From: a virus
Virus record (IMG/VR): IMGVR_UViG_3300034106_003642
Location: 1 to 24,355 of that record
DNA length: 24,355 bases
Reading direction: 5' to 3' (one strand)
Shown: in pieces, positions 3,957 through 20,167 of the stretch
How positions within the stretch are numbered: the first letter of the stretch is position 1
How the letters are laid out: the number at the start of each line of letters is the position of its first letter
Translations under genes and position numbers: made by a program
The notes under the pieces: generated by a model
What the model was told of the DNA's origin: nothing
Database searches by the model: none
Seen by the model: only the letters and a program-made list of their open reading frames with translations

Positions 3957-4018
3957 GGCGCGTCCTCCATGTCAGTCAGTTCCTGTTTGCGTGCTCGGGG
4001 GACGGTGTTTTGGTACAT
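3950..4018 (-). CDS. Possible 22-aa micro-ORF between the zinc-ribbon gene and the tail-anchored protein
   Basis: A short frame encodes MYQNTVPRARKQELTDMEDAPW. It starts inside the 3' part of the zinc-ribbon gene in another frame, and its stop lies within the GTGGTGA that starts the next gene, which suggests translational coupling. A GGGG lies four bases upstream of the ATG, which is a poor spacing. It may only be a relay for ribosomes or chance. Low confidence as a gene. Confidence 0.25.
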   Translation of the reverse strand: MYQNTVPRARKQELTDMEDAPW

Positions 4019-4167
4019 TCTGCCCCGCTCTTCGTAGAATTTGAAGGGCCAATTTTCACGACGTTTTCTTGGGTAGCAAACCTGTGCAGGTTCGCACACT
4101 CCCGACGCCGGCGCCCCTGTCGGCTGTCCAGCACTATCGTCCACGCTCCACATACTGGACATTTCAT
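3976..4167 (-). CDS. NrdR-like zinc-ribbon protein (no ATP-cone)
   Basis: 63 aa. The start ATG at 4167 follows GGAGGTG and overlaps the preceding stop (ATGA); a longer in-frame start at 4233 lacks a ribosome-binding site. The N-terminus reads MKCPVCGAWTIVLDSRQGRRRRECANLHRF: a CPxCG knuckle, an Arg-rich stretch and a second EC-N-x-HRF element, the layout of the NrdR zinc ribbon. The ATP-cone domain that follows in bacterial NrdR (about 150 aa) is absent. Such short versions are frequent in phages; they could bind NrdR boxes or simply nucleic acid. One of the usual four Cys ligands in the second knuckle is replaced by His or lost (C-A-N-L-H). The C-terminal 30 residues look unstructured and overlap the micro-ORF frame. 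Confidence 0.8.
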   Translation of the reverse strand: MKCPVCGAWTIVLDSRQGRRRRECANLHRFATQENVVKIGPSNSTKSGAECTKTPSPEHANRN

Positions 4168-4370
4168 TTCACCTCCGTGGCGGTGTGTAAATACATCGTC
4201 AAACGCTTGATTTTGGATTCGTAGTACTTGCACATGGAATCCGAATATTCCCGTGCTGACTGCGCTTCCAGCAGTCTGCGTTTGGACTCTTCCAACTCGC
4301 GCAGCGCCAGCGCTTCGGCGCTGGGCGTCTTGTACAGCGACTTGGTGAAGTCGACAATTTCTTTCAGCAT
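4164..4370 (-). CDS. Small helical protein of unknown function
   Basis: 68 aa. The ATG at 4370 has AAGGAG eight bases upstream; an upstream in-frame start at 4397 would overlap that site. The protein (MLKEIVDFTKSLYKTPSAEALALRELEESKRRLLEAQSAREYSDSMCKYYESKIKRL, in part) is charged and strongly helical, with a likely coiled coil over residues 20-55. I do not recognise a named family; proteins of this look are common in phage early operons. It couples to the zinc-ribbon gene by an ATGA overlap. Confidence 0.8.
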   Translation of the reverse strand: MLKEIVDFTKSLYKTPSAEALALRELEESKRRLLEAQSAREYSDSMCKYYESKIKRLTMYLHTATEVK

Positions 4371-15443: not shown

Positions 15444-16535
15444 TTAGGCCACCTCGACGAGGTCGAGCAGATCGCCGGCCGTCGTTTCGAATTCGACCCG
15501 CTCGGCCGTCCACGGGATCGAACGCGCGTACGCGGTCGCGCCGGTGACGACGTCCCACAGCGACTCGATCGGGCGGCCCTCGTCGGCCATATGTGCGGCC
15601 GCGACGCGCTGGCCGACCTTCGGCCCGAAGCGCTTCGCCAGAAAATCCTCGACCTTGTCGACCTTCGATCGCTGCGCGCCGACTAGCACGCGCTCGACCG
15701 AACCGGCGCTGGCTTGCGAATAGGCCAGCAGCGCCGGCGCGACTTCCTCGACAAACCGATCGGGCGCGCTGGCCGTGTGACGGATAGCGATTTCTTCCAG
15801 CTCATGCGCGCCCCAAACGATGCGATTAGCGCAGACATAGTCGAAGAGGAAGGTTTTCACGCGCAGCGTGCCGGCGCCGACTTCGGAGTTACTGACGAAA
15901 AACCCGCGCGCCAGCGTGCCGGTTTGGCCGTCTCGGCGGCCGGGCAGCTCGATGCGGTTTGTCTCGTCGGCCAAGAAAACGAACATATCGCGGTCGCCAG
16001 CGTAGAGGGTCGTATTGGCCGACGTGACGACGTCGAGCGCCTCGCCGAACATGCCCGGCACGCGGAAGTCGCCGGTCACGCCGTCGCCGAACCGGTCGAC
16101 GAGCGCGTCGACGACGTCGCCATTCCAGATGCGGCCATATCGCGGCCCGGTCATGGCGCGCAGCGTCGCGTCGCCGTTTTTGGTCAGCAGTACGCCGACG
16201 TCCATTGCGTCGCGCTCGACGTGAAACCCGTAGTTCAGGCAGTCGGCCGCGACCGGCGCCGGCAGCGTGCGAAGGTACGCGGCCGGCGCGCCGACGAGCT
16301 GCGCGGCTTGCCCCATCGCCCAATTGGTCGGCGCGAAACCGTAACCGCTCGGCCCTTCGATCATCAGGCCGGCCGCGCCGTCGGGCACGGCCCGGAGCTG
16401 GCGCGAGCTGACGACGGCCGCGCGGCTGATAGCGCGCTCGGCGTGAAACTTCGCGGCCATCGCCGTCAGCGACGTGAAGCGCTCTTCCTCGGGACGAGTG
16501 GCCCATTGTTTGGATGCTTGCATGAGTGTGGACAT
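15444..16535 (-). CDS. DUF932-family phage/plasmid-like protein
   Basis: 363 aa, starting at ATG 16535 with GGAG nine bases upstream; an earlier frame to 16586 lacks this site. The sequence fits the DUF932 family of phages and plasmids: a region around GPSGYGFAPTNWAMGQAAQLVGAPAAYLRTLP (quoted in parts), then NYGFHVERDAMDVGVLLTKNGDATLRAMTGPRYGRIWNGDVV, followed by FLADETNRIELPG, RGFFVSNSEVGAGTLRVKTFLFDYVCANRIVWGA. No catalytic motif is obvious. These proteins are of unknown function and are often found in accessory operons of mobile DNA. It is the largest gene of the GC-skewed operon. Confidence 0.9.
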   Translation of the reverse strand: MSTLMQASKQWATRPEEERFTSLTAMAAKFHAERAISRAAVVSSRQLRAVPDGAAGLMIEGPSGYGFAPTNWAMGQAAQLVGAPAAYLRTLPAPVAADCLNYGFHVERDAMDVGVLLTKNGDATLRAMTGPRYGRIWNGDVVDALVDRFGDGVTGDFRVPGMFGEALDVVTSANTTLYAGDRDMFVFLADETNRIELPGRRDGQTGTLARGFFVSNSEVGAGTLRVKTFLFDYVCANRIVWGAHELEEIAIRHTASAPDRFVEEVAPALLAYSQASAGSVERVLVGAQRSKVDKVEDFLAKRFGPKVGQRVAAAHMADEGRPIESLWDVVTGATAYARSIPWTAERVEFETTAGDLLDLVEVA

Positions 16536-16860: not shown

Positions 16861-17088
16861 TCAGTAGCCGCGCTCGACGGCCCAGCTCGTGATGCGCTCG
16901 ATCGTCGACGCCGGCACGCGACGCGGTCGGCCGCTGCGGTCTTCCAGCTCGCCGGTCGCGTCGAGCGCGGCCAGCGACGCCGAATAGTGCGTGCCCCGGT
17001 CGTTGAAATCGACGAAGCACTCGGTCGTCTCGCCGGTCGTATCCAGCTCGACAAGGTAACCGCTGATGATGGTGGTCGCTTGAGTCAT
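16861..17088 (-). CDS. Small protein, first gene of the GC-skewed leftward operon
   Basis: 75 aa, starting at ATG 17088 with GAAGGGG upstream. A longer frame to 17169 includes the promoter region and is rejected. The protein reads MTQATTIISGYLVELDTTGETTECFVDFNDRGTHYSASLAALDATGELEDRSGRPRRVPASTIERITSWAVERGY (in pieces), a small beta-rich N-terminus followed by a helix. No family is recognised. It is the promoter-proximal gene behind the operator-like dyad at 17164-17182. Confidence 0.75.
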   Translation of the reverse strand: MTQATTIISGYLVELDTTGETTECFVDFNDRGTHYSASLAALDATGELEDRSGRPRRVPASTIERITSWAVERGY

Positions 17089-17140
17089 GGTTTGTTGCCC
17101 CTTCGGTTTGTTGCGTCGCGCACGATCGCGCGGCGGGGTC

Positions 17141-17182
17141 AGTGTCAGCGAACCGGCCGACCTTGTCAAGAATTCTTTTACA
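17141..17182 (-). promoter_or_regulatory. Leftward promoter with operator-like dyad
   Basis: On the minus strand TTGACA (17169-17164) and a weak -10 GACACT (17146-17141) are 17 bp apart, about 50 nt before the ATG at 17088. The -35 box is the right arm of a 19-mer (17164-17182) that is identical at 16 of 19 positions to the dyad at 6918-6936, including the block TTCTTGACAA. Confidence 0.55.
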
Positions 17183-17479
17183 TTCCCGACAATGCCGAAG
17201 GGTTATTATCGTTTGGCGTTGGGTCGTTTGGGTCGTTTGGGTCATGGGGCCGCCGGAGCTGGTGAACAGCTCGCCGGCAGCAGCTCGCGCAGCGCGGCCG
17301 CCAGCGCGGCCAGCTCGCGCGCTCGTTTGGGTCAGATTGTCGGGTCGTTTGGGTCATGGTTCGGTCATGGTTTGGCGCCCCCATGACCCAAACGTAAACC
17401 CGCGCCAGAGCTGGGGAAAGTCGAGGGTTTGGGTCGTTTCGGTCATGTTTTTAGCTAGAGCAAAATCAAAACCTAAAAG
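17183..17479. repeat. Non-coding control region with GGGTCGTTTGGGTCATGG repeats
   Basis: No convincing gene. Copies of a GTTTGGGTC-type motif occur at 17221-17247 (tandem), 17322-17334, 17342-17359 and 17431-17447, and another at 17660-17677. An inverted copy CCATGACCCAAACG lies at 17381-17394. On the minus strand each spells ATGACCCAAACGACC, so several chance frames begin MTQTTQ. A 30-aa frame (17446 to 17354, MTETTQTLDF...) just left of the LexA-type box lacks a ribosome-binding site. Confidence 0.6.
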
Positions 17480-17499
17480 TACTGTATAGAAGAACAGTA
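17480..17499. promoter_or_regulatory. LexA/SOS-box-like site
   Basis: TACTGT and ACAGTA are perfect inverted 6-mers separated by eight A/T-rich bases (ATAGAAGA), the exact CTGT-N8-ACAG geometry of LexA boxes of Gamma- and Betaproteobacteria, including the flanking TA/TA. It lies in an AT-rich island inside a very GC-rich region. The regulated gene is not clear: no strong promoter or adjacent gene is seen on either side. Confidence 0.6.
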
Positions 17500-17540
17500 G
17501 GGTAAACGAGCATGTCAGTCGCCAGCGATTGAAACTTGAT

Positions 17541-17706
17541 GACCTAATGACCTAATTGACCCAATGGGCCGCGCCGACGATCGGCGCCAGAGCTGGCGGT
17601 TTGGGGCTCGAAACCGGGCCCCGGCCCCCAGCTCTGCAAAAATCCAGAGCTGGCGGTTTGGGTCGTTTGGGTCATGGCCGGCAGCTCGACCCAATTGACC
17701 CAATGG
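17541..17706. repeat. GACCYAATT iteron-like repeats
   Basis: Direct repeats GACCTAAT (17541), GACCTAATT (17549) and GACCCAATGG (17558) are followed by GACCCAATT (17688) and GACCCAATGG (17697). The block GACCYAATTGACCCAATGG is thus present twice, about 139 bp apart. No gene is seen between them; the words CCAGAGCTGGCGGTTTGG also occur twice (about 17586 and 17644). Confidence 0.55.
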
Positions 17707-17733
17707 CCGACGAGCTGGCGGCCGGCAGCAGCT

Positions 17734-17768
17734 CGGCCCCGGCCCCGGCCCCGGCCCCGGCCCCGGCC
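17734..17768. repeat. (CGGCCC)n hexanucleotide microsatellite
   Basis: Five full CGGCCC units and a partial sixth, inside a non-coding GC-rich stretch. Such runs are prone to slippage and length variation. Confidence 0.8.
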
Positions 17769-17897
17769 GCGAGCTGGCCGGCCGTCCGGGCATGGCGCCA
17801 GCAGCTCGGCGCGCGGCCGAAAGGGAATGGAAAGGGCCCCGGCCAGCAGCTCGGCGGCCAGCTCGCGGCCGTCGGCGATCGGCCGGCAGCTCGGCGA

Positions 17898-17934
17898 AGT
17901 GAGCACTAACTGGGGCGGTTAGTGAGCGCTCACT
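17898..17934. repeat. AGTGAGCGCTCACT palindrome and a degenerate partner
   Basis: AGTGAGCACTAACT (17898-17911) and the perfect 14-bp palindrome AGTGAGCGCTCACT (17921-17934), 23 bp apart. They mirror the pair at 13623-13662, in inverted order with the TCG-side flank on the outer copy. Confidence 0.65.
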
Positions 17935-18177
17935 GGGGGTGCTGCGGTGCAGCATGGCCCCCCGGGGAGGGCCGGCGGCCGGCCGGTCACGAGCCGGTGG
18001 TATCGCAAAAATTTTTTTATTTTTTGCCAGAAAACCAAAAATCCCTTACGCTCGGGGGTGAGACGCCAAGAATCTGGGCGCGCGCGGTAAGTCCCTGCAA
18101 CGTCTCCCCTTTTCCCAGTGGGTCATCTGGGCCATTTCGGCCACCACTTTCAAGTCGCACCGACGTAAACTTAACGC
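17935..18177. other. Non-coding region upstream of the terminase genes
   Basis: This stretch has no supported gene. It holds a 6-bp hairpin TGCTGC-GGT-GCAGCA (17940-17954), a run of GGCC/CCGG, an AT burst with inverted arms GCAAAAA / TTTTTGC (18005-18011 and 18021-18027), an inverted pair GAGACG / CGTCTC (18060-18065 and 18101-18106), and GGCCATTTCGGCCA (18130-18143), which is inverted inside the terminase small-subunit gene. It is a candidate packaging-start (pac or cos) or regulatory region, unproven. Confidence 0.5.
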
Positions 18178-18666
18178 ATGACATTCAAGAGTCTTCCTCT
18201 AACCGTCCGAGAAGTGCGCGCCACCGAGGCGACGCTGGAGCGCATCTATCAGGCTGCGTTCTTGGGGTTGAAGAACGACGCACTGGCGCTGGCAGCAGGA
18301 TTACTGCCTGTCGAGTACCGCCGACTGAAAGAGCTTGACCAAATGGCCGAAATGGCCGAACTCAAGGGGAGGGCAGACAGTGAGCGCGAAAATAGCCAGC
18401 ATCTGCTCAACGCTGCCCGGGCAGGCGACGCCAAGGCCGCGCTTGCCATCCTTCAGCACACCCACGGCTGGGTCGCCAAGCAAGCCATCTCCGTTGAGGT
18501 CGACCAGCGCATCAGCGTCATCGACGCCCTGCGCGCTGCTGAGGCCCGCACCATCGACGGCCAAGTGACCGAGATCGTCGGGGCGCAAGTAATCGAACAG
18601 CAGGTGCCGACGCAGCTTGCCCGCGTAGTGAAGAACACGAATGCAGAAGCCCATCTACAGTCCTGA
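18178..18666 (+). CDS. terS: Terminase small subunit
   Basis: 162 aa. The assignment comes from its position directly before the large subunit (26-nt overlap) and its make-up: an N-terminal helical region (TVREVRATEATLERIYQAAFLGLKNDALALAAG), a helical oligomerisation part with MAEMAELKGRADSE, and LAILQHTHGWVAKQAISVEVDQRISV, the GWV-K-x segment common in phage small terminases of this type. It should recognise the phage DNA packaging site and load the motor. No Shine-Dalgarno is visible before ATG 18178. A -10-like TAAACT lies only six bases before the ATG, so this start or a leaderless mRNA should be treated with some caution. Confidence 0.85.
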   Translation: MTFKSLPLTVREVRATEATLERIYQAAFLGLKNDALALAAGLLPVEYRRLKELDQMAEMAELKGRADSERENSQHLLNAARAGDAKAALAILQHTHGWVAKQAISVEVDQRISVIDALRAAEARTIDGQVTEIVGAQVIEQQVPTQLARVVKNTNAEAHLQS

Positions 18667-20167
18667 CGACGAGCAGCTCCTGATGACCCGGCTGTGGAGC
18701 CCGGCCATCAAGGACGACCCCGAGGCGTTCGTGCTGTTCGCCTTCCCGTGGGGGCAGGAGAACACGCCGCTGGCAAAGTACAAAGGGCCGCGCATGTGGC
18801 AGCGCCTTGTGCTGCGCGACATCAAGGCGCACCTTCAGAAAAACCGAGGCCAAGTCGACATGGACACCCTGCGCGCGGCGGTGGCGTCCGGGCGCGGCAT
18901 TGGCAAGTCGGCCCTCGTGAGCTGGCTCATCCTGTGGATGCTGACGACCCGCATCGGCAGCAGCGTCATCGTGAGCGCCAACAGCGAGGCGCAGCTCCGC
19001 TCCGTGACGTGGGGTGAACTGACCAAGTGGTCGACGATGATCATCAACAACCACTGGTGGGAGATCAGCGCCACCAAGCTCCAGCCGGCCAAGTGGCTGA
19101 CCGACATCGTCGAGCGCGACCTCAAGAAGGGCACACGCTACTGGGCGGCCGAGGGGAAGCTCTGGTCGGAAGAGAACCCCGACAGTTACGCCGGCGTGCA
19201 CAACCACGACGGCATGATGCTGATCTTTGACGAGGCGAGCGGTATCCCCGACCCGATCTGGGCTGTGGGCGCGGGCTTCTTCACGGAGAACATCCTCGAC
19301 CGCTACTGGTTCGCGTTCAGCAACCCACGGCGCAACACGGGGTACTTCTTTGAGTGCTTCAACGCCAAGCGCGACTTCTGGCAAACGCGGCAGGTCGACG
19401 CCCGCACGGTCGAGGACACCGACAAGCAGGTCTACCAGCAGATCATCGAGGAGTACGGCGAGGACTCGTCACAGGCTAGAGTTGAGGTGTACGGCGAGTT
19501 CCCGTCCAGCGGCGACGACCAGTTCATCACGCCGGCCTATGTGGCCGACGCTGCGGCAAGGCCGCGCTACAAGGACGAGACAGCCCCGATCGTGATCGGT
19601 GTCGACCCGGCCCGGGGCGGCGCCGACTCGACCGTGATCGCCGTGCGGCAGGGCCGCGATCTGGTGGCGATACACCGCTACCACGGCGAGGACACGATGA
19701 CCATCGTGGGCCGGGTGATCGACGCAATCGAGGAGTACAAGCCCACGCTGGTGGTGCTGGACGAAGGCGGCCTTGGCTACGGTATTCTCGACCGGCTGCA
19801 CGAGCAGCGGTACAAGGTCGTGCGGGGCGTCAACTTCGGTTGGAAGGCCAAAAACCCGATTATGTACGGCAACAAACGGGCCGAATTATGGGGGTCGATG
19901 AAGGAGTGGTTGAAAACCGCTTCCATTCCGAACGATAGGGGGTTAAAGTCCGATCTGACAGGGCCTACCATAAAACCGAACTCCTCGGGTACAATTTTCC
20001 TAGAAGGCAAGAAGGAAATGAAAGCCCGTGGGCTGGCGTCTCCTGATGCAGCAGATGCGCTGGCAGTGACGTTCGCGTTCCCGGTGGCCCATCGGCAATA
20101 TGTGGAAAAGCCGTCGACTCGCAGTTACGCCAGTAACGGAGTGGCGACATCTTGGATGGGGGCTTGA
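18641..20167 (+). CDS. terL: Terminase large subunit
   Basis: 508 aa, ATG at 18641 overlapping terS. ATPase: Walker A SGRGIGKS (83-90), Walker B MLIFDE (193-198), followed by FAFSNP, the coupling motif. Nuclease (RNase H-like): V-D322-PARGGADS, VVLD374EGG and SPD469AAD472AL. Both halves are intact. This is the motor that drives DNA into the prohead and cuts the concatemer. The length and motif spacing are normal. Headful (pac) or cohesive-end packaging cannot be decided from the sequence alone. The stop overlaps the next start (TGATG). Confidence 0.97.
   Translation: MQKPIYSPDDEQLLMTRLWSPAIKDDPEAFVLFAFPWGQENTPLAKYKGPRMWQRLVLRDIKAHLQKNRGQVDMDTLRAAVASGRGIGKSALVSWLILWMLTTRIGSSVIVSANSEAQLRSVTWGELTKWSTMIINNHWWEISATKLQPAKWLTDIVERDLKKGTRYWAAEGKLWSEENPDSYAGVHNHDGMMLIFDEASGIPDPIWAVGAGFFTENILDRYWFAFSNPRRNTGYFFECFNAKRDFWQTRQVDARTVEDTDKQVYQQIIEEYGEDSSQARVEVYGEFPSSGDDQFITPAYVADAAARPRYKDETAPIVIGVDPARGGADSTVIAVRQGRDLVAIHRYHGEDTMTIVGRVIDAIEEYKPTLVVLDEGGLGYGILDRLHEQRYKVVRGVNFGWKAKNPIMYGNKRAELWGSMKEWLKTASIPNDRGLKSDLTGPTIKPNSSGTIFLEGKKEMKARGLASPDAADALAVTFAFPVAHRQYVEKPSTRSYASNGVATSWMGA

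Follow-up and report, generated by a model that had tools for sequence, protein, structure and literature searches.

Control region between two divergent operons

The window, by which we mean the whole 24,355-base stretch of DNA analysed, is a virus record without host sequence. A longer record of the same phage, 36,951 bases in length, has a 127-base terminal repeat, pointing to a complete circular assembly. The phage encodes a P22-like portal, a terminase, a family A DNA polymerase, a primase, an exonuclease, an SNF2-like helicase and a peptidase M15 endolysin, and its family is found mainly in metagenomes. The closest named phages, DSL-LC05 (OR003940; 74% terL identity) and MW202483 (67% terL identity), are both environmental and resemble the window phage in terminase, portal and genome plan, but neither contains a single CTGT-N8-ACAG in its entire genome.

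In the window, a predicted SOS box has the DUF932 operon, which reads leftward, on one side and the terminase genes, which read rightward, on the other (Table 1). The leftward cluster begins at 17088 with a 75-aa gene and further comprises a 61-aa gene, a DUF932-family gene and a DUF7227 gene. Between the two operons, the open frames in 17089–18177 are conserved only in the same phage and one close relative, and we therefore regard this interval as gene-free, in agreement with the original prediction; a hidden conserved small gene between the box and terS was considered and is unsupported by frame conservation. The small neighbouring genes have no significant DNA-binding domain; the one exception is far off, a small phage protein on the minus strand at 3976–4233 that contains a zinc ribbon of the NrdR type (PF22811, E 1.8e-7). 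Searching named phages with the nucleotide sequence of the control region returned only a 101-base match, which falls inside the terS gene.

Table 1. Features of the control region and adjoining genes (window coordinates; a dot marks no strand)
Feature	Position	Strand	Basis or remark
DUF932-family gene (phrog_1362)	15444..16535	-	family matches
First leftward small gene, 75 aa, function unassigned	16861..17088	-	no conservation in other relatives
Direct repeats of 9-bp period, (TT)GGGTC(A/G)	17221..17244	+	sequence
Further GGGTC(A/G)/CGGTCA repeat copies	17323..17367	+	sequence
Repeat pair GGGTCG...CGGTCA, ending ~35 bp left of the box	17431..17445	+	pair at that distance recurs in relatives, with differing unit sequence
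A+T-rich stretch left of the box	17444..17479	.	in nearly all box-bearing relatives
Predicted SOS (LexA) box TACTGTATAGAAGAACAGTA	17480..17499	.	unique exact match; same-slot copies in relatives; 18 of 20 bases shared with the E. coli umuD box
-10-like TATAGA within the box	17485..17490	+	aligns with TATAGG of box-less sisters; promoter-like score weak and confounded by A+T content
Inverted GGGTC(A/G)-type repeat unit right of the box (TGACCTAATGACCTAATTGACCC)	17540..17562	-	sequence
First rightward gene, putative terminase small subunit (terS)	18178..18666	+	named by position and homology to genes adjoining terL
Terminase large subunit (terL)	18641..20167	+	phrog_2, weak Terminase_6N

The control region holds further recurrent elements. 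Repeats of the GGGTCA/TGACCC type with a 9–10-bp period and alternating orientation fill 17221–17702 and the corresponding regions of relatives. The repeat unit switches as a set between phages (TTGGCAAT, ATGTGTCA, GGGTAGTGT), and the repeats look as if they were read by a DNA-binding protein of the phage whose specificity drifts. Another palindrome that recurs, TTAGTGAGCGCTCACT-like, lies at 17903–17936, nearer to terS than the box; its version in relatives, GTTAGTGACCACTAAC, is found upstream of terS in L003, L155 and L116, sometimes in several copies. At 17959–18024, a conserved G+C-rich block followed by AAAAATTTTTTTATTTTTT, immediately upstream of terS in most relatives, is possibly a packaging site or promoter.

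An SOS-type palindrome unique in the window

The original prediction singled out a perfect TACTGT-N8-ACAGTA at 17480–17499, and TACTGTATAGAAGAACAGTA is indeed the sole match to this pattern in the 24,355 bases, with no match in 100 dinucleotide shuffles of the window. Base composition alone gives about 3e-4 expected occurrences of the 12 fixed bases (hand calculation), so that the earlier estimate of a chance match, about 0.002, was conservative. The looser CTGT-N8-ACAG also occurs only once, at the same place, with 0.2 expected by chance. TACTGTATAGAAGAACAGTA has the CTGT-N8-ACAG core with TA...TA flanks of an SOS box, and its spacer, ATAGAAGA, is A/T at 6 of 8 positions, as A/T-rich as had been claimed; spacers of relatives were also compared. 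It differs from the umuDC (umuD) SOS box of E. coli at 2 of 20 bases, and the recA, sulA and lexA boxes in MG1655 conform to the same scheme. The AT island described around the site exists, although the contrast with 'GC-extreme' DNA is moderate: 17444–17515 is 65% A/T in a window of 63% G+C.

Conservation of the site in related phages

Among relatives fetched by protein, L082, L083, L084, L085/L088 and L098 carry sites in the same slot with differing spacers, and L101 carries a degenerate site whose right arm is broken. A pattern scan detected perfect TACTGTATATATATACAGTA upstream of terminases merely 73–74% identical to that of the window, and two further protein scans, seeded from lineages found by pattern, enlarged the set of relatives. 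Same-slot sites reach down to about 72% terL identity and lie mostly 740–1200 bp upstream of terL; many of them are the perfect consensus.

The search for CTGT-N8-ACAG at the same place in related phages, proposed with the original prediction, was run on 158 distinct upstream regions of homologous terminases, a set fetched by protein from which loci fetched by pattern were left out. The 8-base core is present in 39 of these regions and the 12-base palindrome in 24, fractions that are not population estimates because the seeds of the two later protein scans came from the pattern; eight scrambled palindromes gave no match in the same regions. The first protein scans alone gave 6/67 for the 12-base palindrome and 9/67 for the 8-base core. 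With a scoring matrix built from 14 E. coli SOS boxes, of which umuD, lexA (two boxes), recA and sulA were afterwards verified in MG1655, a score of at least 18 was reached in 43 of 167 distinct upstream regions compared with 0 of 165 terL gene bodies. Among relatives the spacer bases vary and CTGT/ACAG and, mostly, the TA flanks are kept, the pattern expected for LexA.

More elaborate arrangements occur elsewhere in the set. L369 has SOS-like sites about 700–780 and 1149 bp upstream of terL: an array of three (TACTGTACATTCATACAGCA type) with ACTAAGACTTAGTGAG repeats between them, and a fourth, TACTGTATAGGTATACAGTA. Upstream of terS in L118 and L120, tandem CTGTATGCCTGTACAG-type palindromes alternate with ATACAGTACTGTAT. 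L168, L171 and L221, whose terminase is distant (38% identity), also have SOS-like boxes, about 940–1030 bp upstream of it; these may be a separate case because the loci were fetched by pattern.

SOS boxes in a putative host order

A scan for prophage copies yielded only one bacterial bin with a terL relative (86%), on a single 3-kb contig. In this bin, which may not be the host of the window phage, a box of its own, GACTGTATATACTTACAGCA, lies just upstream of a canonical lexA. In the order to which the bin belongs, TACTGTATA-N4-TACAGTA occurs in 18 of 57 genomes, with none for the reversed-pattern control, and the ten loci that were read include boxes upstream of imuA (three), umuD, an error-prone polymerase and an integron integrase. 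Because matching boxes precede SOS genes in this order, the 20-mer of the window resembles in form the functioning SOS boxes of plausible hosts. Taken with the same-place sites in relatives and the verified E. coli boxes, this sequence evidence strongly supports the prediction of a LexA-type SOS box.

A putative, exchangeable operator slot

The slot in which the box sits has a recognizable order: a pair of repeats of 9–10-bp period on the left, whose unit differs by phage (GGTCATTTA, GGGTAGTGT, GTGGGCAAT), then an A+T-rich stretch, the box about 35–40 bp on, and inverted copies of the unit. Box-less sisters retain the repeats and the A+T-rich slot, and in one such group (L263/L452) a −10-like TATAGG aligns with the TATAG of the box. 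In close relatives the slot can hold other palindromes: ATTTCACAATGTGAAAT in L288, ATATTTCATAATGTGAAATAT in L289 and GTCACATAGTTGTGAC in L104; ATTTCACAATGTGAAAT and GTCACATAGTTGTGAC are carried by sisters from the clade of the window phage itself. L288 and L289 are near-identical phages with a ATTTCAYAATGTGAAAT palindrome in place of the SOS box. None of 195 genomes from the putative host order contains this alternative palindrome, which is therefore probably not a host operator there, a candidate role that we rejected.

Close relatives with conserved surroundings that lacked the site were to count against the original prediction, and here the outcome is mixed, with some lacking the box and some keeping it. 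Where close relatives lack the box, a different palindrome or a −10-like motif on its own stands exactly in the slot, which points to an operator that is swapped rather than random. Even G008 and G002, with identical terL and 95–97% identity over long stretches, differ in the slot. On the terL tree the presence of the box needs about 15–23 changes, a count in which truncated contigs affect some labels; recombination is likely.

Lifestyle genes were searched for in near-complete relatives. None of those searched has an integrase (PF00589), a resolvase (PF00239) or a Peptidase_S24 (PF00717) match, and HTH_3 gave nothing above the family cut-off, its one hit, in the L228 record, being sub-threshold and in a broken frame. 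A phage S24 or HTH_3 repressor adjoining the site was thus sought and none was found, which leaves room for repressors of other types. These absences are compatible with, but do not prove, a virulent or non-integrating lifestyle; plasmid prophages of the N15 type need no integrase.

A proposed model of LexA control and its alternatives

We consider it likely that the slot contains a phage promoter repressed by host LexA, a reading in which both the binding and the promoter activity are deduced from the DNA. The LexA of the host would bind the palindrome where it overlies the −10/start region of that promoter, in the control region between the two divergent operons, and, while intact, would keep the promoter shut or damped. 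Infection or DNA damage would activate RecA, LexA would cleave itself and the promoter would open. Our best guess is that it would fire rightward, through about 680 untranslated bases, into terS-terL-portal, that is, the packaging and late genes; the phage might in this way delay late expression or persist until its host is in trouble. The rightward direction appears most likely because the left repeats, the A+T-rich stretch and the −10-like motif line up that way, and the leftward operon could also be the target. Scores for promoter-like sequence, which A+T richness confounds, are best for a rightward −10 that overlaps the box. A consensus promoter scan of the control region returned nothing, and the window has no convincing −35 element, its own −35 being poor. 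Distant cousins keep the switch at the same spot before the packaging genes, and so the damage alarm of the host probably helps to set when these viruses express the packaging-gene region.

Several findings count against LexA control. The box is missing from most relatives (about three quarters), a leader of 680 bases ahead of terS is long, the host link consists of one 3-kb bin contig, and the different slot palindromes of nearly identical phages fit phage-encoded regulators as well. The palindrome might accordingly serve as operator for a repressor or Cro-like protein that the phage encodes and whose specificity drifts between phages, its likeness to an SOS box in this lineage being incidental. 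The other palindromes in L288, L289 and L104 and the absence of the alternative one from the host order speak for such an operator; however, near-complete relatives lack S24 and above-cut-off HTH_3 proteins, and lineages with 72–96% terminase identity to the window phage share the exact 12-base SOS consensus of E. coli type, and we judge this explanation unlikely. We find it more doubtful still that the palindrome belongs to a replication origin or other nucleoprotein element in which LexA is uninvolved or acts on replication rather than transcription. An A+T-rich stretch and the palindrome do lie between repeats of 9–10-bp period whose orientation is inverted from one side to the other, but the box sequence fits LexA and not an initiator motif, and it comes and goes among otherwise alike regions, so that it is not essential to an origin-type site. 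A chance palindrome, or an RNA hairpin or terminator without regulatory role, has in its favour the broken right arm in L101 but is highly improbable, since relatives conserve the place and the controls (scrambled palindromes, gene bodies) stand at zero, which refutes a pure chance match, and RNA downstream of the site shows for the most part no unusual structure (most z-scores −2 to 2) and has no Rfam match, so that we rejected a hairpin, a terminator and a known RNA family alike.

Beyond LexA control of the window phage itself, we tentatively propose a wider arrangement, which we hold to be possible but not probable: freshwater podovirus-like phages without an integrase or classical repressor may carry an exchangeable operator slot over a late/packaging promoter, occupied in some by a LexA box, such that the SOS state alone would time the late genes (LexA-dependent lytic deferment or a carrier state), and by other operators in near-identical sisters.

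Comparison with known systems

Most known cases of LexA control concern temperate phages, in which it acts through antirepressors. Of the traits of LexA-induced temperate phages, an integrase or resolvase was not found in near-complete relatives, nor a conserved gene beside the box. The open-licence literature on LexA sites in virulent phages gave no report of this phage family. That the box was repeatedly gained or lost in one slot, in phages without visible lysogeny genes, suggests that virulent-looking phages may heed host DNA damage before virion production. Such a slot pattern would bear on lifestyle calls made from genomes, and near-identical pairs that differ in the slot (G008, G002) make listening to the SOS response directly testable.

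Chromosomal SOS boxes of the LexA regulon in beta- and gammaproteobacteria share with the window site the CTGT-N8-ACAG core, the TA flanks, the A/T-rich spacer and the upstream position, but they adjoin repair genes, whereas the window's box sits in a phage control region beside packaging genes. In the coliphage 186 (Tum), N15 (AntC) and Gifsy (GfoA) systems, LexA controls antirepressors (PMC3121763); there too an SOS box lies in the phage genome, coupling development to DNA damage, but it governs an antirepressor that acts on a resident repressor, and neither gene was found near the box of the window phage. A LexA switch controls phage functions in the Betatectivirus GIL01 (PMC4551915, PMC6182141), which differs in being a tectivirus with a Gram-positive host and LexA and a helper protein, gp7, a LexA cofactor; LexA control there is direct and goes with plasmid-like lysogeny. 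As Ubeda 2007 is cited in PMC4551915, operon I (packaging) of SaPI is under LexA; on that secondary account the likeness would be a LexA site, predicted in our case, tied to a packaging operon, the SaPI being a satellite island of a Gram-positive host and the window phage a complete podophage-like virus. In the CtrA-site phages, sites for a host master regulator are likewise conserved in phage promoters, and 'lytic deferment' and lysis timing were proposed (PMC9437464); the regulator there is CtrA and the hosts are alphaproteobacteria, whereas the site in the window is of LexA type. In the family of the window phage such sites are conserved in a subset of relatives, and lysogeny genes were not found in the near-complete relatives searched. 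Phage use of LexA is thus already known; the novel element is that a family in which no lysogeny genes are visible has, ahead of its packaging genes, a slot that is conserved yet swappable.
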